Source of the DNA: Pseudoalteromonas piscicida
GTDB taxonomy: Bacteria; Pseudomonadota; Gammaproteobacteria; Enterobacterales; Alteromonadaceae
DNA length: 64,000 nt
NCBI RefSeq assembly: GCF_000238315.3
Contig: NZ_CP011924.1
Location: 269,501-333,500 of the forward strand
Direction: 5' to 3'
Shown: positions 3,847 through 14,222 of the stretch, piece by piece
How the letters are laid out: every line of letters starts with the position of its first letter
Numbering within the stretch: position 1 is the first letter of the stretch
The notes under the pieces: model-generated
Databases searched by the model: none
The model's input: only the letters and a program-made list of their open reading frames with translations
Told to the model about the DNA's origin: nothing
Translations under genes and position numbers: made by a program

Positions 3847-4437
3847 TCACCTATTCTCTGCCGTCAGTGGAAGCTGAATATGAGCAATTGCGCCTTGTGC
3901 TTGTTCAAAATCGACTTGATTTTCTTGCGTGGTGGGAATTTCTATCAAGGTTTGAGCAAGTGACTTAATCGGCGAGAGAGAATTATGAATCTCGTGGCTG
4001 AGTACTCTGATCATTTTTTGCCAAGCGTCGCGCTGAGCTTGGCTGACAACCGCTTGCACATCAGTCAGGATCACCAAGTGTGCCTGCATGCCTGCAATGG
4101 TAAGCTCACTATAGCGAAGCTGTCACTCATCACCTAGAGTAGGGTGGTTAAAGCGCCAATGTCTACTATGATACTCAAGGCTAAACTTATGCGCTTTTAA
4201 CAAACGCTGGCTTTGCCATGGTTTGCCAATCCAATTTGAGAAGGCTTCATTGGCATGCACCAAGGCGGTATTGTTATCGAAAATTGCGATGGGGCTGGGC
4301 AGTTGCTGCAATACCCCTTTGATCCCAGCCCGTACGGTGAGCTTATTCACCCTATCTTGAACCAATAAAAATACTTCATTACAGGCATCAATATTCGACT
4401 GCGCAAGCTGCAGGTTGGCTTTGTGTAAGGTCTGCAA
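3847..4437 (-). pseudogene. remnant of a sensor histidine kinase
   Basis: Read on the minus strand, this is a PAS-like region (LPSPIAIFDNNTALVHANEA) followed by a dimerisation/phosphoacceptor box LSHEIHNSLSPIKSLAQ. It resembles the intact kinase at 51003-52274 (LNHEVRNTLTPV...MAQSL). An in-frame TGA after LGDE (about 4123-4125) interrupts it, and the frame ends at 3847 before any ATP-binding domain. The 5' end is fused in the same frame to the adaptor remnant, with TAA at 4438-4440 between them. The permease, ATPase and response-regulator genes expected between adaptor and kinase are missing, so an internal deletion is the simplest explanation. Confidence 0.7.
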
Positions 4438-5017
4438 TTATGATATTCGCTGTTGCTCAATATTAATGCGACGTTTCAGCTGGCGATGGGTAAGTACCGC
4501 GCGTTGGTAGTCGAGTTTAGAAACAACTCCATCTTCAACCAATTCTCCTTGAGCGGTAACCTCCAGTTCGGCACTTTCTAACTCAGATCTCAGAATTTCC
4601 AAATCCGCCTGATGAGACAGCAGTTCTCGTTGTTGATTGATATCGAGTTGTAGATATTGGTCTTGCGATTGCGCCAAACTGCGTTTGGCATCTTTTAAAG
4701 ATTGGGCCAAATTTGCATCTTGTAACCTCATGATGATGCTGTCGGGAACCCGGGCGCAACACAATTTCTTCAACCGTGGCATCGCTTGCGGCACTTATCA
4801 AACGCGGCGTTTTCGATTTAAGCTGTCCATATCCAGATACACTGACCTCTAAATCCCCTTGCTGGACTTCTGCAATCCATGTTTTCGCTATGGGCAAAGA
4901 TGCCTGCGCTGAGGACTGTATTAGCAGCCATATAATAACTACGGCGAAAATGGTTCCGCCAACAGCCCACAACCAGTTAACCTTGTTGCGCTTTTTATAT
5001 TCGACTTGTATATCCAT
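4438..5017 (-). pseudogene. remnant of a HlyD-type membrane fusion protein
   Basis: The 5' portion begins at ATG 5017 with a short cytoplasmic segment, one membrane anchor (about residues 14-34) and the barrel-entry motif VSGYGQLKSK. After VLRPGSR, near position 4745, the reading frame shifts; the continuation in another frame (PDSIIMRLQDANLAQSL...) runs through a coiled-coil hairpin to TAA at 4438. The intact-frame relative is the adaptor at 45222 (FSVKGYGRLRSK; LHLPGSRVEPDTVILQLTNP). Everything after the coiled coil is lost and replaced by kinase sequence. A sigma-54-like element lies 45 bp upstream. It is a decayed paralogue of the 45.2 kb operon. Confidence 0.75.
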
Positions 5018-5061
5018 GTTGATATCTCTGGTGGAATGAAGGTTGTTATTACTCAGTAGAT

Positions 5062-5077
5062 AACAAGTCGCATGCCA
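5062..5077 (-). promoter_or_regulatory. sigma-54 promoter-like element before the adaptor remnant
   Basis: On the minus strand the element reads TGGCAT-GCGAC-TTGTT, close to the sigma-54 consensus TGGCAC-N5-TTGCW, with the -12 GC changed to GT. It sits 45 bp before the start of the decayed adaptor gene, in the same place as the better match in front of the 45.2 kb paralogue. It may be a decayed promoter. Confidence 0.4.
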
Positions 5078-5262
5078 AAATTTAATTAACTGAAATTATT
5101 GAAATTTTTATTTTGTCTGCTTGCATGGAAGGAGGATTTTTGCGGTTTCGAAAATAAAAATTGTGGTTTTGGGATGAGTTAGCACAGCACTTTTGTTGAA
5201 TTTATGTAATTTTTTGTTGCAGTTTGGTCCGTGGTCTGGTTTTATTTGGCATAGAAAAAGAT

Positions 5263-5285
5263 GTAAGGATAACTACTAATTATGA
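5263..5285 (+). repeat. 23-bp inverted repeat, left copy (carries RBS and ATG)
   Basis: Perfect 23-bp match to the reverse complement of 6982-7004. It starts GTAAGGATAA, has a 7-nt centre CTACTAA and ends TTATGA. It includes the ribosome binding site TAAGGA and the ATG (5282-5284) of the gene to its right. ATAA/TTAT form a small dyad around the centre, an arrangement like the inner ends of Xer/dif-type recombination sites. Identity stops abruptly on both sides. Confidence 0.9.
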
Positions 5286-6286
5286 ATCTCAATTCACACT
5301 ATTCATTAGAAAGAGTTGTGAGCTCTAAAGATCAAAAGTATATCGAAGGATTATCGATATACTCTAGGTACACACACCCTGCTCTTAGAACGGAAACTAA
5401 TACAATTACTTATTGGCTAGATAACTATAACAAAAAGTTTGATGATGAGTTCCATGTCCTTGTTTTTTCAAATAATGAAATAGTTATTGGCTATACTCAA
5501 CTAACCTATTTCGTTGAAGAAAATATAGTTGTTATTGACTATATATCCATAGATGAAAGATATAGGAAGAACAATACCTTTTTTGAGTTTGCAGATCAGC
5601 TTGCCCAGTATATTGAGAGTAAATTTCCCAGCTCAAGCTTTTCCGTTGTAGAGCTAGCCTTGATAGATCAGCCTTATCATCAAAGTGATAATTTTGAGTT
5701 GATGAAAAAGCTACTAGGCATGATTGGATTTTATGAGTTGGATCTTGATTATTGGCAATTAGAGCTTTCAGCTAGCAATCATGAAAGCAAGGTTCCTGCA
5801 CATTTATTTTTAAATCCTAGGCCTCTTCATTGTAGTTTAAGGAAAGAAACCGCATTGGATTTACTACACATGCTGTATATTAAACATTACTCAAGGTGGT
5901 TTGAAGTATACGAGGAAGATAAAGTTATTTTATACAAGGAAAAAGCTCAAGAGCTTTATAGCACCGCAAAGACATCTCTCGTTGATGATGTTTATTTTAA
6001 AGGTGGAAGTGATAAAGCATATGAAAGTATAGTAAAGACAACAACTGCACAGCCTACTCAACATTTAGGTCTGTCGGTAAAATTGACTTTTTTATTTTTG
6101 GTATTAGCGTTATCTTTAGTGTTTTTTATTAAAAAAACAGAAATAGATAAAGATGATTTCTTTTACTTTTATGGTTTTCTTTCCGTTAGTTTCGTCTTTT
6201 TTCTTTCTTTGTTCTCGTCGCGTGCACTGGAGGTACTAAAAGTTGTATCTAAAACCTTCAGCGACATTTTAAAAGGAAAGCCATAA
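5282..6286 (+). CDS. GNAT-fold-like protein with C-terminal membrane hairpin
   Basis: 334 aa, not recognised as a named family. Residues about 5-160 look like an N-acetyltransferase (GNAT) fold: FHVLVFSNNEIVIGYTQLTYF resembles strands 2-3, followed by VVIDYISIDERYRKNN, where the acetyl-CoA loop would be, then FFEFADQLAQYIES. The C-terminus has two predicted membrane segments (about 265-283 and 293-312), unusual for GNATs and suggesting membrane attachment. The gene is visibly AT-rich compared with its neighbours. Its start codon and RBS lie within the left 23-bp repeat, and its last 29 bp overlap the convergent methyltransferase gene. The function is unknown; horizontal acquisition is likely. 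Confidence 0.6.
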   Translation: MNLNSHYSLERVVSSKDQKYIEGLSIYSRYTHPALRTETNTITYWLDNYNKKFDDEFHVLVFSNNEIVIGYTQLTYFVEENIVVIDYISIDERYRKNNTFFEFADQLAQYIESKFPSSSFSVVELALIDQPYHQSDNFELMKKLLGMIGFYELDLDYWQLELSASNHESKVPAHLFLNPRPLHCSLRKETALDLLHMLYIKHYSRWFEVYEEDKVILYKEKAQELYSTAKTSLVDDVYFKGGSDKAYESIVKTTTAQPTQHLGLSVKLTFLFLVLALSLVFFIKKTEIDKDDFFYFYGFLSVSFVFFLSLFSSRALEVLKVVSKTFSDILKGKP

Positions 6287-6985
6287 AGTTACATCCACCT
6301 CTTTTTAGTATGTTAACCCTTTGAAAAAAAGGATCTAACTTGGAGAGTTTGGAAGATAGTTTCGGGTTACTTGTACTTCGTAAGAGCAGTGTGGATATGA
6401 TATGTATCGAGTTGCTCTTTTTCTCTAACAAGTTAAAACTGTGTAAAATTGAGTTTATGTAATCAATAGAATAAAGCCAAAGATGTTCGCTTTCTCCATT
6501 ATAAAAGGTGTGGATCGGAGTTACACTTTCCTTGTACTTGTCTGTAAATATAAATTCATAACTATTACTAGTTTCGTATTCTAAAACTAAAACTCCACCT
6601 TTTTTTGTTACTCGATTAAGCTCTTTAATAGCAAGCTGTGCATCAACATAATTTAGTACCGAACCTACACACATATTACAATATCAAATGACTCATCAAA
6701 AAAAGGAATGTTTGTCACAGAGCCTACTATTGATTTGTCCTCAAAATTTAATAAATTCTCTGCTATATCTAGATGATAAATAAAATCACCAGATATTCCG
6801 TAAGAGTTACCTCCTGAACCCGCAAGTAATACTCTTTCTGATAATTTCACACCATCTTCTATGCTTAAATAATCGTATAAATACTGCTTAATTTTTCTGT
6901 AGGTGTGATAGTGCCATTGATCGGAAATATCCCAGATATTCTGAAGCTTATTATACTTATCTCTTACATCACACTCTTCAATCAT
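6258..6985 (-). pseudogene. class I SAM-dependent methyltransferase, frameshifted
   Basis: The first frame (6985 to 6665) carries the SAM-binding motif VLLAGSGGNSYG and the acidic strand end HLDIAENLL, ending at FDIVICV before TAG. The second frame (from 6674) continues with GSVLNYVDAQLAIKELNRVT and KKGGVLVLEYE, the usual post-motif helix and strand of Methyltransf_11-type enzymes. Joining the two as DIVICVGSVLNY needs removal of 2 nt from the TGTGTGT run at about 6665-6674, so a dinucleotide expansion is likely. Translation would start in the right 23-bp repeat, 18 nt after the recombinase stop codon, so the two would be cotranscribed. The 3' end overlaps the convergent gene by 29 bp. The substrate is unknown. 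Confidence 0.7.
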
Positions 6986-7004
6986 AATTAGTAGTTATCC
7001 TTAC
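6982..7004 (-). repeat. 23-bp inverted repeat, right copy (carries RBS and ATG)
   Basis: Reverse complement of 5263-5285 with no mismatch over 23 bp. Its first base is the last base of the recombinase stop codon (7004-7006). It contains the RBS TAAGGA and the ATG (6983-6985) of the methyltransferase gene. Together the two copies bound a 1.7-kb segment with mirror-image translation starts. Confidence 0.9.
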
Positions 7005-7957
7005 TAACTAGCAATTCGTTTCCTTACATTGGCTTTAGTGATCTTTTTTTGCAGCGCGTTGTCGGTAACATGGGTATAAATTTCCGTGGTTGAGATACTA
7101 CTGTGTCCGAGCAACCGTTGGACGAATCGAATGTCGAGGCCTGATTCAAGTAGTTCGCATGCCGCGCTGTGCCTTAGCATGTGTGGAGTGACTTTGAGTT
7201 GGGTGTATGCTTGTTGACTAAGTTTTTTGATTAGTTTGCGTAAGAATTGCGTTGAGGCGGGTTCCCCGCGGCTATTAATCAGTAAATGATCGCAATGTGG
7301 TGCGCAAATAGCGCGGCTTTCAATATAGTTCTTGAGTAATTTGGCTATTTCTTGATCTGTGAGATACACAAACCGTTCTCTGGCTCCCTTACCTAAGATT
7401 TTAATCTTCTTTTCGTTGATATAGATGTCAGTTAAACAAATTCCAGCAAGCTCAGAGACGCGGATCCCTGTGCTAATCATAAGTTCTAACGCGATGAGTG
7501 AAGTAAATTCATTTAGCATGCGCTTTTGACTGATGCTATATGTGTTTGATGATTCTACCCATAAGTTTTTACAGTTTTTTCTGGCTTGTTTGAGCAAGCG
7601 TTTCAAGTCTGAGTGTGGTACGTTTCTTGGTAATCTTTTGGGTAGCTTAATGTCTAGCTGGAATTTATGAAAAGGATTAAGCTCGATGAATTCCTCTCGC
7701 TCAAGCCACTGGAACATAGCCCTTACACACGCCATTTTGCGCTTTATTGATGTGTTTGATAGCTCTGCATCAACCAGAAATTGATGGAACTGTGATAAGT
7801 CTACTTTGCTAATATCTTTAATGCTTTTATTTTCATCAAGTGCCTGCATAAACTGCTTTAGGTCAATTTGATATGCTTTCAAGGTGTGATCTGAGAGTTT
7901 ACGTTTATCTTTACACAGGGAAATGAACTGTTGAGAAAGTTGGTTTATTGATTGCAC
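7004..7957 (-). CDS. tyrosine recombinase (XerC/D-like integrase)
   Basis: 317 aa with an N-terminal SAM-like core-binding domain (about 1-95) and a C-terminal catalytic domain. All expected catalytic residues are present: Arg166 (STGIRVSEL), Lys190 (LGKGARER), His259 and Arg262 (HMLRHSAA), His285 (LLGHSSIS) and nucleophile Tyr294 (TTEIYTHV). There is no IntI-type extra domain, so this is not an integron integrase. About 20 residues (roughly 128-148) look inserted before the first catalytic block compared with XerC/XerD. The stop codon abuts the right 23-bp repeat, and the gene is the only recombinase near the inverted-repeat segment, making it the obvious candidate to act on those sites. It looks intact. 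Confidence 0.9.
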   Translation of the reverse strand: MQSINQLSQQFISLCKDKRKLSDHTLKAYQIDLKQFMQALDENKSIKDISKVDLSQFHQFLVDAELSNTSIKRKMACVRAMFQWLEREEFIELNPFHKFQLDIKLPKRLPRNVPHSDLKRLLKQARKNCKNLWVESSNTYSISQKRMLNEFTSLIALELMISTGIRVSELAGICLTDIYINEKKIKILGKGARERFVYLTDQEIAKLLKNYIESRAICAPHCDHLLINSRGEPASTQFLRKLIKKLSQQAYTQLKVTPHMLRHSAACELLESGLDIRFVQRLLGHSSISTTEIYTHVTDNALQKKITKANVRKRIAS

Positions 7958-8078
7958 TGCGATAAATCTACTTTTGCTAATACCTAATTTAGTGACCGTA
8001 TTAGAACAGATTGTTGATAAAAACTGTATATAATCAATTGATTTAAAGGAATGTAGAATACAAGCGTGTTGTTAAATA

Positions 8079-8095
8079 GGCTCCAAGTCGGAGCC
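8079..8095 (-). terminator. hairpin after the 11.7-8.1 kb operon
   Basis: GGCTCC / GGAGCC stem with a 5-nt loop, located 23 bp beyond the stop of the last minus-strand gene of the operon. On the minus strand it is followed by TATTTAAC, a weak T-tract. Confidence 0.45.
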
Positions 8096-8117
8096 TCGGT
8101 ATTATGACAATAATTGT

Positions 8118-8636
8118 TTATTCGCTAATCTGCATTTGTTCAAAGAGCGTATGGTAGTCTTCTAGATGCCAATTTTTAGTGATTTTCTCACCATCAACGT
8201 AGTAAACATCGACGGCTCGAAAATCAATGGCTTGACCTGCTCCTTGGTGCTCACCAAATTGGCCGCTGAAGTGTCCAAAGAAACGTAGTCGTACCGTGAC
8301 AAATGAACCACTGACTAGTAAGTGTTCGACTTCTGCTTTCAGGTCTGGCACTGCGCGACGAAATCCTGATGAGGCTTCTAGCACGCCTTTCAAGCCTTGC
8401 TTTCTACCTCTTGGTAATGTCATATCAGTAAATGTGTTACTTAGTGCCTGTCTCGCAAACTTAGTGTCTCCACTGTGCCAAAAAGCAGCGTATTGCAATA
8501 CGGCATTCGCGGCTATTTGACATTGTGTTGAGTCACAAATTTGCGCAACCTTTGCTACGGGTAACTCCTCATTGGGTGCTGCTAATGCTATAGTCGCACT
8601 GACACTTAGTGCTAAAATTAAAGCATGTTTAATCAT
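8118..8636 (-). CDS. secreted SnoaL/NTF2-like protein
   Basis: 172 aa with a clear signal peptide (MIKHALILALSVSATIALAA). The mature part has the alpha+beta barrel pattern of SnoaL-like (NTF2-fold) proteins: ALSNTFTDMTLPRG, FRRAVPDLKAEVEHLLVSG, RLRFFGHFSG, AIDFRAVDVYYVDGEKI and KNWHLEDYHTLFEQM. Members are often called polyketide cyclase-like or ester cyclase, but catalysis is unproven for most. It is the last gene of a five-gene minus-strand operon and starts 12 bp after the deacetylase stop. Export to the periplasm is inferred from the signal peptide. Confidence 0.75.
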   Translation of the reverse strand: MIKHALILALSVSATIALAAPNEELPVAKVAQICDSTQCQIAANAVLQYAAFWHSGDTKFARQALSNTFTDMTLPRGRKQGLKGVLEASSGFRRAVPDLKAEVEHLLVSGSFVTVRLRFFGHFSGQFGEHQGAGQAIDFRAVDVYYVDGEKITKNWHLEDYHTLFEQMQISE

Positions 8637-8648
8637 TACCGAGCACCT

Positions 8649-9587
8649 CTAAAACACGCGCTCTGGGTTGGTTGGTACGTCTTGCTGCTTTAGGGTCCAT
8701 TTCGCGATGTCTATCTTGCGCATAAACTTAACCTTTGGGTGCGATTTTGCGTAACGAATAAAGTCGTCAAGTGCTTTTACGCGAGCCGGACTGCCTGCGA
8801 GCCTGTCGTGTGCACTGATAGACATCATACGGCGCTGGGATTTTCCTTCTTCATAAAGCACATCAAATTCGTCCTTTAACTCTTGCAAATAGGCTTTTGC
8901 TGTCATTGCGGAACTGCCGCCATAGCGCACGATATCGTTATTTCTAAAGGTATAAGGCACCACCACGAAGGGCTTGCCATTAACCGGGGTAAACGAAGGC
9001 TCATCCCGAGATAAGTCATCAATATGATAGACAAAGCCAAGGGACTGCAAAATAGTTAATGTTTGCTCAGAGTGGCGCATCCAAAACGCATTAAAGCCTT
9101 GTGGTCTTTGCCCTGTGATCTTTTCAAGCACGTCTGCACTGTGAATATAAGATGCTCGTTCTGCTTCGGGTGTCATCGAGTATTGTGGTGTCCAGTTTTG
9201 TCCATGACCTGAAATCTCATGCCCCTTTTGAGCCACCATTTTGGCAAGTTCAGGATTGAGCTCTGCAGCTTTTCCTACCATGTGGGACGTCACTTTGATG
9301 TTGTGCTTATCCCAAAGCTTAAGCAATCGTGGGATCCCTTCATTCATGCCATACTGATACCAAGTAAGAGCGACGGTGTCGGGGTAGCCTGCTTCTTGCT
9401 GAGGAAATGGCCCTGGATCGCTTGGGTCTTGTGCGGTTGCTTCAAACTGCATGGAGATAGAGATCACCAGTTGAGCATCATCAGGCCAGTAATTGCCAGA
9501 CTCTACTTCAGCGCCGTGGGCTGTGCCTGCAAGCAGGGCGGTTGCTGTTAGTAGTGCTCGAATACTTGTGGTCAACGTGGTACGCAT
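8649..9587 (-). CDS. secreted polysaccharide deacetylase-family protein (NodB/PuuE-like)
   Basis: 312 aa with signal peptide ending near GTAHGA. The NodB-fold features are VTSHMVGKAAELNPELAKM, GHEISGHGQNW (metal-site His pair) and a late MMSISAHDRLAG block. The pattern is closer to the PuuE/allantoinase-like and peptidoglycan-deacetylase-like branch than to chitin-oligosaccharide NodB; the actual substrate cannot be assigned. The gene starts 2 bp after the PEBP-family stop and is followed by the SnoaL-like gene, so it is translated from the same operon. Presence of a signal peptide puts it in the periplasm, unlike cytoplasmic PuuE. Confidence 0.75.
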   Translation of the reverse strand: MRTTLTTSIRALLTATALLAGTAHGAEVESGNYWPDDAQLVISISMQFEATAQDPSDPGPFPQQEAGYPDTVALTWYQYGMNEGIPRLLKLWDKHNIKVTSHMVGKAAELNPELAKMVAQKGHEISGHGQNWTPQYSMTPEAERASYIHSADVLEKITGQRPQGFNAFWMRHSEQTLTILQSLGFVYHIDDLSRDEPSFTPVNGKPFVVVPYTFRNNDIVRYGGSSAMTAKAYLQELKDEFDVLYEEGKSQRRMMSISAHDRLAGSPARVKALDDFIRYAKSHPKVKFMRKIDIAKWTLKQQDVPTNPERVF

Positions 9588-13491: not shown

Positions 13492-13704
13492 TTAATCGCA
13501 CATATACTGTCTATTGGTGAAAGCGCAGTCGTGATCACCGTAACAAGAGATAGCACCTGTACGGCAATCGTGGCGGTTAGTCGGTACACAGTCCAAATCA
13601 GTCAAACGGTTTACACCACCACCAATTTGGGGGGTTGCTTGTGGCGTAATAGCTTGAGCATTGTTTAAGTTTTTAAGCGGCTTTTTATTCAGTTTAATTT
13701 TCAT
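13492..13704 (-). CDS. small Cys-rich peptide with GG-type leader (putative RiPP precursor)
   Basis: 70 aa. It begins MKIKLNKKPLKNLNN, a basic leader pattern (KxKLxKKxLKxL) seen in several peptide-natural-product precursors, and has TPQIGGG at residues 24-30, a double-glycine-like cleavage motif. The remaining 40 residues hold five cysteines and a repeated unit (CVPTNRHDC and CAFTNRQYMC). RBS AAAGGA lies 8 nt before the ATG. A relative with the same leader follows 32 bp upstream at 13737-13919, and another is at 36664-36855. I see no maturation enzyme or peptidase-containing exporter nearby, so precursor status is inference. Confidence 0.65.
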   Translation of the reverse strand: MKIKLNKKPLKNLNNAQAITPQATPQIGGGVNRLTDLDCVPTNRHDCRTGAISCYGDHDCAFTNRQYMCD

Positions 13705-13736: not shown

Positions 13737-13919
13737 TTAACAGCGAAGAGAGCCACAGTTATAGCAAGAACCAAATGCTTTCGTGTTGCATAACTCGGTT
13801 ATTTCTCTGTCACAACCCGCGGTTAAATAACCTCCCGCGATGTTTGGTGTTTGGGCTTTTTCCAAGCCTGCAGTATGGTTCAGTTGTTTTATCTTTCTTT
13901 TTTTTAGTGTTAATTTCAT
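13737..13919 (-). CDS. second small Cys-rich leader-type peptide
   Basis: 60 aa from the ATG at 13919, chosen because AAGGA lies 8 nt upstream and the leader pattern MKLTLKKRKIKQLN begins exactly there; an in-frame ATG at 13991 would add an unrelated extension. The motif QTPNIAGG occupies residues 23-30, matching TPQIGGG in the neighbour. The last 30 residues hold five cysteines (GC, LC, SC, NC and a C-terminal RC). It lies in tandem with the 13492-13704 gene and could be cotranscribed with it. The function is unknown. Confidence 0.65.
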   Translation of the reverse strand: MKLTLKKRKIKQLNHTAGLEKAQTPNIAGGYLTAGCDREITELCNTKAFGSCYNCGSLRC

Positions 13920-14222
13920 CTTATTTTCCTTATTGTGAAAGCTTGAATTGTCGTACAAAAAATAAACTGCATTGTTGACTGTACCCAACATAAATTATTT
14001 GTCAAATATGTTTTTTAAAGGTTAAATTTATGTTTTTCGCAATTGCCTTATTTCAACCCTGTGTAACTTCAACGCTCGATGACAAGCTGCTTTTTAGCCT
14101 TGAGTGCAGCAACTATGGTGTAACGTACATTTGCACTGCCAGTCGCCCAACGCATCGATATTGTTTGGTCTTTTTAATCATGCAACACTGCAACATGAGA
14201 ATAATTAAAAAGCGGGATGAAG

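Follow-up and report, generated by a model that had tools for sequence, protein, structure and literature searches.

Can two convergent genes be expressed in alternation by flipping the DNA segment that carries them? The question is raised by a locus in the window, the 64,000-nucleotide stretch of Pseudoalteromonas piscicida DNA analysed here, in which an inverted repeat encloses two such genes and a tyrosine recombinase gene adjoins one of the repeats. Judging from sequence comparison, a site-specific DNA inversion switch is the best explanation of this segment and very probably the right one. The features concerned are the following:

5018..5262, +, left leader, non-coding; the left gene could be transcribed from here (putative promoter, with no good consensus match in the window)
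5175..8649, no strand, approximate presence/absence unit of leader end, segment, recombinase gene and SnoaL-like gene (mapped via the coordinates of G075)
5263..5285, +, left repeat copy, 23 bp, one half of the perfect inverted pair; listed beside the sites of relatives
5282..6286, +, left cargo gene, 334 aa, with a weakly GNAT-like N-terminal part (ORF; Acetyltransf_1) and a hydrophobic C-terminal part (by eye)
6258..6674, −, 3′ piece of the right cargo gene, in another frame, overlapping the left gene by 29 bp (ORF)
6665..6985, −, 5′ piece of the right cargo gene, SAM methyltransferase-like (Methyltransf_11); frame broken near 6668
6982..7004, −, right repeat copy, the other half of the perfect inverted pair; abuts the recombinase stop codon and holds the ATG of the right gene
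7004..7957, −, gene for an Xer-like tyrosine recombinase of 317 aa, reading towards the segment (ORF, family models, alignment)

Results

The window sequence contains the perfect 23-nt inverted repeat pair of the original prediction (5263-5285 and 6982-7004), with an ATG inside each copy (ORFs 5282-6286, +, and 6665-6985, −); the chance expectation of such a pair in a 7-kb stretch is ~6.5e-7. The left copy combines a crossover-like core, ATAACTACTAATTAT at 5269-5283, with an SD-like TAAGGA and the ATG of the left gene. In the window's own genome the 23-mer (≤3 mismatches) occurs as these two copies only, and it was found in 7 of 108 genomes of the genus. A search for the site across the order (≤1 mismatch) gave matches in 11 of 394 genomes, which besides the window's own were mostly single; in G462 and G254, for which the ORF list alone was used, ordinary genes surround the match. 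The proposed resemblance to dif is present as ATAA-N7-TTAT, but this pattern is non-specific (182 places in the genome versus 223 for the reversed control) and was discarded as a site marker by itself.

The convergent cargo genes do overlap by 29 bp (6258-6286), but the methyltransferase is not the single ORF that had been assumed: near 6668 a short GT run breaks it into two frames, 6665-6985 and 6258-6674, which overlap. Methyltransf_11 matches the 5′ piece weakly and just below the cut-off (E 8.6e-4, 20.3 bits versus 21.2), and profile searches gave no family match for the 3′ piece. As for the left gene, described earlier as encoding a GNAT-like membrane protein, the GNAT assignment is weak (Acetyltransf_1 E 0.011, below the cut-off) and the hydrophobic part was recognised by eye; no PDB sequence matched the protein at E≤1. 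Of the 108 genomes searched, G000 and G072 alone contain the cargo DNA of the window, and two others give short matches.

The recombinase ORF ends at the right repeat, as predicted, its TAG sharing one base with it. The frame is uninterrupted, and R166, K190, H259, R262, H285 and Y294, which we take to be the catalytic positions, are invariant in 14 of 14 aligned sequences. The protein scores 222.9 bits with the XerC model (cut-off 335.15) and 218.7 bits with the XerD model (cut-off 329.6), far below both, and XerCD/dif identity was rejected on these scores. An integron was rejected on the score with the integron-integrase model (99.2 bits, cut-off 265) and the inverted layout of the sites. 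Viral contigs hold no close relative (best identity 36%; 80 loci kept of 106 relatives), which speaks against a phage origin, and a plasmid origin was likewise rejected, a single plasmid record reaching E≤1e-50 (41%). Elsewhere the genome encodes two distant paralogues (28-30% identical) of almost full length.

It had been proposed to look for the site beside recombinase homologues in other genomes and to tabulate the genes enclosed; 16 further genomes indeed share the layout and enclose other gene pairs. A recognisable site copy abuts the recombinase homologue in 20 of 25 cases examined, most commonly with the core ATAACTAGGAATTAT, which in 11 genomes lies beside recombinases 42-55% identical to that of the window. 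Such a site is lacking next to three of the 25 homologues (G107, G513 and G521), and in G521 the gene is interrupted by a stop. The whole segment is readable in 17 genomes, the window's included, which were selected for having inverted sites; in these, inverted sites bound the segment and a recombinase gene is linked to it. The site comprises an outer arm of approximately AGTAASGATAA, a 7-nt spacer such as CTAGGAA or CTACTAA, and an inner TTATG. Within each of the 17 complete segments both copies have an identical spacer, which is CTAGGAA in 15, CTACTAA in the window and TTAAGAA in G757. Since 15 share CTAGGAA, the covariation of the spacers rests on the window and G757, plus the two flank contigs of G083.

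All 17 segments carry two convergent genes or short operons. The first ORF starts at core position 14-24 in 32 of 34 cases and the gap between the two gene sets is −50 to +27 bp, which leaves no room for internal promoters. In 11 of the 17, one partner is NTPase-like and the other an enzyme. Pfam searches of the cargo gave no match to a type I specificity subunit, as an hsdS shufflon would require, in any of the 17. PADLOC was applied to 10 cargo proteins of eight segments, the NTPases of G564, G615, G011 and G029 being left out; it returned a SIR2-type match in G093, a CHAT match in G075 and otherwise none or weak ones, so that defence cargo as a general rule is unsupported by this sample.

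Evidence for inversion came from two sources, in agreement with the prediction of an invertible segment. G072 is co-linear with the window in its flanks (on the recombinase side, 96% over 7519 bp), while a 543-bp piece (99.3%) that holds the repeat and the beginning of the GNAT-like gene is reversed relative to the window and lies beside the recombinase. This is a single case of opposite orientations of one cargo gene, between species (G000/G072), and G072 has lost one repeat by deletion. The second source is the draft assemblies, of which 10 of 15 have a contig end at the site (P ~5e-18 for random contig ends, with the largest single-genome chance applied to all), and in seven (G002, G011, G024, G029, G050, G092 and G093) the segment forms a contig of its own. 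The flank contigs examined overlap both segment ends by an equal length of 14-26 bp in six of these seven. In G002, G092 and G011 this overlap equals the stretch over which the two copies are identical (in G011 16 bp, the outer arms differing by one base), and in G050, G024 and G029 it is 1-11 bases shorter. The overlaps in G093 measure 127 bp exactly, a length to be expected of an assembler k-mer. The segment-only genomes contain as many exact site copies as one locus needs, with 0-4 additional one-mismatch matches per genome. These breaks indirectly indicate that both orientations may coexist within one sample.

Five of the 15 drafts (G027, G525, G564, G757 and G830) are unbroken at the site. 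The NTPase occupies the left position in every one of them that has an NTPase-enzyme pair (G027, G564 and G757) and in the single-contig G615, so that these loci may have a strongly biased or a fixed orientation; G553 and G525 agree in orientation as well. The frameshifted methyltransferase of the window and the deleted repeat of G072 suggest that some copies may be locked.

A promoter scan of the window gave no excess over shuffled sequences, which in fact held more promoter-like sites. Over 15 leaders, a test with sigma-70 weights gave a Fisher p of 0.03, a weak result in which relatedness is ignored; the window's own leader had a p of 0.38.

Discussion

Based on these comparisons, we propose a model in which the Xer-like recombinase would bind the two inverted sites and invert the segment between them. 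Since the start codon of the following gene lies at or directly beside the end of each site, either gene could be expressed from the flank that it happens to face. Transcription of the left-site gene would begin at a promoter in the leader, presumably the stronger one, and the gene at the right site would form one transcription unit with the recombinase gene preceding it. Inversion, probably performed by this very recombinase, would exchange the two roles, and a cell could thus swap the expressed gene by flipping the segment, giving a predicted either/or expression of the pair.

A cassette-type insertion at an att site had been named earlier as the alternative, and this holds in part, in that content differs between close relatives and one palindromic site is empty. 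Here the recombinase would mainly insert, remove or exchange two-gene cassettes at a palindromic home site, inversion being a by-product of the inverted sites, which we consider plausible though somewhat short of even odds. Flank homology between the window and G075 ends at the repeats, and cargo is without BLASTP similarity (E≤1e-4) between loci whose recombinases are 99% (G000 and G075), 94% (G050 and G093), 91% (G564 and G590) or 90% identical (G092 and G024, both of the NTPase plus ATP-grasp kind). Homologous cargo pairs in turn lie beside distant recombinases (G092/G615 64%, G050/G027 47%, G757/G564 46%), and the empty site, in G619, consists of two 16-nt outer arms mirrored around AGG. 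However, established recombination logic predicts inversion, and not excision, for inverted sites whose spacer is asymmetric, and exchange could also come from ordinary homologous recombination in the common flanks. Cassette exchange and the inversion switch are compatible and not mutually exclusive.

It is unlikely that repeat and recombinase are mere remnants of an element, with both genes expressed constitutively, one from each side, and orientation irrelevant. The frameshift in the window, the one-sided deletion in G072, the poor promoter score of the window leader and the five unbroken drafts would fit such a relic, whereas the breaks in the other ten drafts and the conservation of site and start position across genera argue against it. 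Still less probable is another cause for the breaks, such as extra site copies or hairpin-related coverage loss: each genome has a number of exact copies that fits one locus, assemblies should not break at repeats of 16-26 bp, and the break position tracks the identical stretch in G002, G092 and G011. Moreover, the two copies are 3.4-6.9 kb apart in the seven segment-only contigs and thus too far for a hairpin at the site.

By analogy, the inversion switch would work like the Mu G segment or the Moraxella pilin switch; what sets it apart is an Xer-like recombinase, cargo that can be exchanged and the position of the start codons at the site. In the G segment of phage Mu and the C segment of P1, inverted sites acted on by the serine invertases Gin and Cin bound two convergent alternative gene sets; there too, the recombinase gene lies just outside one end and inversion picks the set behind an outside promoter. 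These systems differ in their enhancer-dependent serine invertase, in sites inside the coding region that keep a constant N-terminus, and in their tail fibre cargo, as opposed to exchangeable pairs of unrelated genes. Pilin inversion by Piv in Moraxella bovis and M. lacunata shares the convergent alternative gene parts in an invertible segment with promoter and recombinase outside, but Piv is a DEDD recombinase, the sites lie within the pilin gene and there is one cargo. XerC/XerD-dif has in common a simple Xer-like tyrosine recombinase and ATAA...TTAT inner arms; the present system departs from it in its spacer (7 nt, that of dif being 6 nt), its scores and its gene-linked site pair. As in integrons, a chromosomal site whose gene content varies lies next to a recombinase. 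Integrons, however, are built of cassettes of one gene each, in direct order and with folded attC sites, unlike the paired convergent genes between sites that are inverted in 17 of 17 complete segments (selected for this arrangement), and their integrase model is not reached. Streptococcal hsdS inversion, in which PsrA/CreX-type tyrosine recombinases act on inverted repeats to invert gene bodies, is similar in its enzyme and repeats; it yields variant specificity subunits of one restriction system (PMC7096588, PMC4948785), as against the entire, mutually unrelated genes found here, whose start codons lie at the site. No description of the present layout was found in a literature search that covered few subscription papers and no bioRxiv preprints.

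Tentatively, and with almost even confidence, we hypothesise that marine gammaproteobacteria possess a chromosomal platform dedicated to exchangeable 'flip cassettes': paired convergent genes, most often a STAND-type NTPase and a biosynthetic enzyme, would move as pairs between distant recombinase loci and take their start signals from the crossover site, and their flipping would make cells within a single culture express opposite partners. Such a system might serve conflict, immunity or division of labour. What is suggested is an inversion switch with a fixed frame whose cargo is exchanged wholesale and in which NTPase-enzyme pairs recur. The defined gene pairs, strains and sites allow one to ask why two partners are kept in exclusive or unequal expression, and the same set serves the question of how gene pairs pass between inversion loci. 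The NTPase of the G092/G615 pair was detected in one of 375 family genomes at E≤1e-15, namely G615 itself; G092, from which the query was also taken, evidently lay outside this sample. Around the window's own segment, the block 5175..8649 is absent as one unit in three close relatives (G034, G018 and G071).

The window locus

The perfect 23-bp inverted repeat of the original prediction, with an ATG in each copy, was located in both copies with an ORF starting at each, and its chance expectation is approximately 6.5e-7 for the 7 kb examined. The complete recombinase ending at the right repeat was likewise recovered, its stop codon having one base in common with the repeat. The methyltransferase, predicted as one gene, proved to be two ORFs in different frames with the break at 6665–6674, which may reflect real decay, a sequencing error or slippage.

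5263–5285: left repeat copy, gives the ATG to the left ORF
5282–6286, plus strand: left cargo ORF, 334 aa
6258–6674: second ORF, continuation of the methyltransferase-like gene
6665–6985, minus strand: methyltransferase-like ORF, first piece, frame lost near a short GT run
6982–7004: right repeat copy, gives the ATG to the methyltransferase-like ORF
7004–7957, minus strand: recombinase, 317 aa, reading towards the segment

The recombinase matches Phage_integrase and SAM-like domains and is Xer-like, yet scores far under the XerC and XerD cut-offs; XerD is its top-scoring solved relative. Six positions matching the catalytic set, which we take to have the corresponding catalytic roles, are invariant in all 14 aligned homologues. 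The left flank (3847–5017) contains fragments of a sensor kinase and of a HlyD/EmrA-like efflux adaptor, seemingly brought together by a deletion; G075 has the whole adaptor and G072 the whole kinase (G and L numbers denote compared genomes and loci fetched from them; G000 is the window's own genome).

Distribution and anatomy

The recombinase was found in 14 of 108 genus genomes (E ≤ 1e-60). A 14-row profile matched 15 of 395 family genomes (E ≤ 1e-85), five counted before and ten new, the latter from eight other genera, and in a class-wide draw of 369 genomes two matched (E ≤ 1e-95): that of the window and G830, a member of another family. Among the 25 recombinases of the combined searches, 20 have a site copy adjoining the stop codon, as the original prediction proposed to check; the site is cut by a contig end in G024 and G029, both contigs stop where it ought to start in G046, and none was found beside the recombinase in G107, G513 and G521. 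In G619 the palindromic site at the recombinase stop is empty (L135:8405–8439), consisting of two outer arms of 16 nt that mirror each other around AGG.

Seventeen segments are complete (G000, G075, G093, G002, G050, G092, G024, G027, G011, G029, G553, G525, G757, G564, G590, G615, G830), measuring 1.7–6.9 kb with a G+C content of 0.29–0.38. Tabulation of the genes between the repeats, also proposed at the outset, revealed differing contents in one convergent layout: from each end one gene or short operon points inward, and the two sets lie −50 to +27 bp apart. The first ORF (100 aa or longer, opened by rule at the first ATG, GTG or TTG, with the two methyltransferase pieces of G000 chained) starts at core position 14–24 at 32 of 34 ends, 20 of them at position 14, the ATG of the inner TTATG. 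One end each of G011 (76) and G590 (157) deviates, the G590 start lying at a degenerate site copy. The core is most commonly ATAACTAGGAATTAT, with ATAACTACTAATTAT in the window, G072 and G083, ATAATTAAGAATTAT in G757 and ATAACTAAGAATTAT in G516; the right copy of G590 has a final C. The 7-nt spacer is identical between both copies in all 17 segments, but since 15 share one spacer, few cases support covariation. A variant site, AAAAGTAAGGATAATTAAATATTATAT, stands at the end of G083 contig C29 (L101:1–30), some kilobases from a gene that by eye resembles an NTPase, and may mark a second switch in that genome.

Evidence of inversion

In G072, where the flank order is as in the window and the recombinase is 96–97% identical, a piece with the repeat and the next 520 bp of the window's left gene is reversed and adjoins the recombinase. 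The opposite segment end, with the left repeat, is absent, which we interpret as the result of a subsequent deletion. G072 is the sole example of homologous cargo in opposite orientation.

Fifteen genomes count as drafts, here meaning assemblies of three or more contigs in which a site or a contig end adjoins the recombinase (G619, G107, G513 and G521 fall outside this count; G000, G072, G075, G553, G590 and G615 have one or two contigs). A contig ends at the site in ten of them (G002, G011, G024, G029, G046, G050, G083, G092, G093, G516; the one ending there in G093 being the segment contig), against a chance expectation of at most 0.8% per genome based on rounded contig counts. Seven drafts have a separate segment contig. 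In six of them, any one flank contig shares an equal length with either segment end: 24 bp in G002, 20 and 21 in G050, 26 in G092, 21 and 17 in G024, 16 in G011 and, on the recombinase side, 14 in G029, whose left contig was not found. In G002, G092 and G011 these overlaps match, to the base, the stretch over which the site copies are identical, and they are shorter than it in G050, G024 and G029; in G093 they are exactly 127 bp, one segment end per flank. No segment contig was found for G083, G046 and G516, although one of the patterns searched for does not fit the G083 and G516 cores. A repeat this short and with two copies would be expected to interrupt an assembly only when reads join both flanks to both ends. 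The predicted invertible segment is supported by the reversed cargo and these contig ends, flipping within a culture being indicated indirectly, through assemblies.

Cargo and its possible exchange

A large NTPase-like protein occupies one side in 11 of 17 segments and an enzyme the other. Several NTPase calls are weak AAA/STAND matches under the cut-off or a P-loop motif alone; the P-loop pattern was not found in the proteins of G757 and G564, and G757 was assigned by similarity to G564.

Cargo facing the NTPase-like protein
G092, G024, G757, G564, G615: D-Ala-D-Ala-ligase-like ATP-grasp
G050, G027: SHMT-like
G093: pyridoxal decarboxylase-like, facing a SIR2-NACHT protein
G002: carbamoyltransferase, facing an operon of a 384-aa protein and the NTPase
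G029: glycosyltransferase
G011: operon of a PLP-like enzyme (weak, E 0.016), methyltransferase and HAD hydrolase

The other six segments hold the window pair (G000), CHAT-EamA and a protein of 243 aa (G075), PAP2 and a protein of 347 aa (G553, G525), a KAS III-like protein and one of 332 aa (G590), and, facing a 226-aa protein, a glycosyltransferase that also has a weaker match of conflict-system type (G830). Since a PADLOC scan of ten cargo proteins gave clear matches for the SIR2 and CHAT proteins and none or weak ones for the rest, a defence role is a guess. In the G757 cassette, an aminoacyl-tRNA editing domain protein (L138:8938–9360) precedes the ATP-grasp gene, hinting at amino-acid chemistry.

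When the cargo of 15 segments (without G011 and G029) was compared all against all, both partners were homologous in four cases, with recombinase identities of 47% (G050/G027), 64% (G092/G615), 71% (G553/G525) and 46% (G757/G564). Conversely, four pairs have recombinases 90–99% identical yet cargo without BLASTP similarity (E ≤ 1e-4): G092/G024 (90%), G564/G590 (91%), G050/G093 (94%) and G000/G075 (99%). Cargo pairs thus appear to move between loci while recombinases remain. Because G092 and G024 both carry the NTPase and ATP-grasp kind despite this dissimilarity, and weak ATP-grasp similarities connect G024, G757, G564 and G615, the difference partly reflects diverged members of one kind, not the arrival of new cargo. 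Up to the repeats, the window and G075 share flanks of 94–96% identity; between the repeats, blastn gave no match (E ≤ 1e-5). The close relatives G034, G018 and G071 lack a block that begins 88 bp to the left of the left repeat and extends up to and including a SnoaL-like gene, the other three loci compared being uninformative on this point; at the same locus (L223, L225, L226), about 78 bp replace the segment, recombinase and SnoaL-like gene.

Expression and orientation

Because both genes begin at the site or close to it, with hardly any non-coding DNA between them, transcription should come in from the flanks; for the right-side gene it would come after the recombinase gene. On the left, the best promoter match of 6 among 15 leaders (G002, G092, G024, G027, G564, G590; near copies of G000 and G002 in G075, G083 and G011 omitted) is TTGAxx, 17 nt, xxxTAT, ending 13–16 nt ahead of the repeat. 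Taken over all leaders, this test gives weak evidence (Fisher p 0.03, with sigma-70 weights and related flanks counted separately), and the window leader's match is no better than shuffles. A GGAAAG run precedes the left copy, not the right, in G092, G024, G027, G564 and G590 and could act as a Shine-Dalgarno sequence. Four assemblies that carry an NTPase-enzyme pair are unbroken (G027, G564, G757, G615), all with the NTPase at the left, and the 127-bp overlaps of G093 place it there as well, so orientation may be biased or regulated.

Comparison with known systems

In the Mu G segment, as in the Moraxella pilin switch, an invertible segment carries alternating gene sets beside an invertase, and the locus here follows the same plan. 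The Moraxella switch is listed in PMC11868660. Inversion of gene bodies by a tyrosine recombinase is already known for hsdS (PMC7096588, PMC4948785), and PMC12529663 ties serine recombinase inversion to phage inhibition. Start codons at the crossover site combined with exchangeable pairs are not described in the available portions of PMC11868660, PMC7096588, PMC4948785, PMC5903667, PMC8138268 and PMC12529663. We classify the locus as a site-specific inversion switch, a variant with these two features; on a bolder reading, it may be a platform for cassette exchange.

Elsewhere in the window, two small minus-strand ORFs (13492–13704 and 13737–13991) with lysine-rich leaders, a TPxIxGG motif and cysteine-rich ends look, by eye, like modified-peptide precursors.
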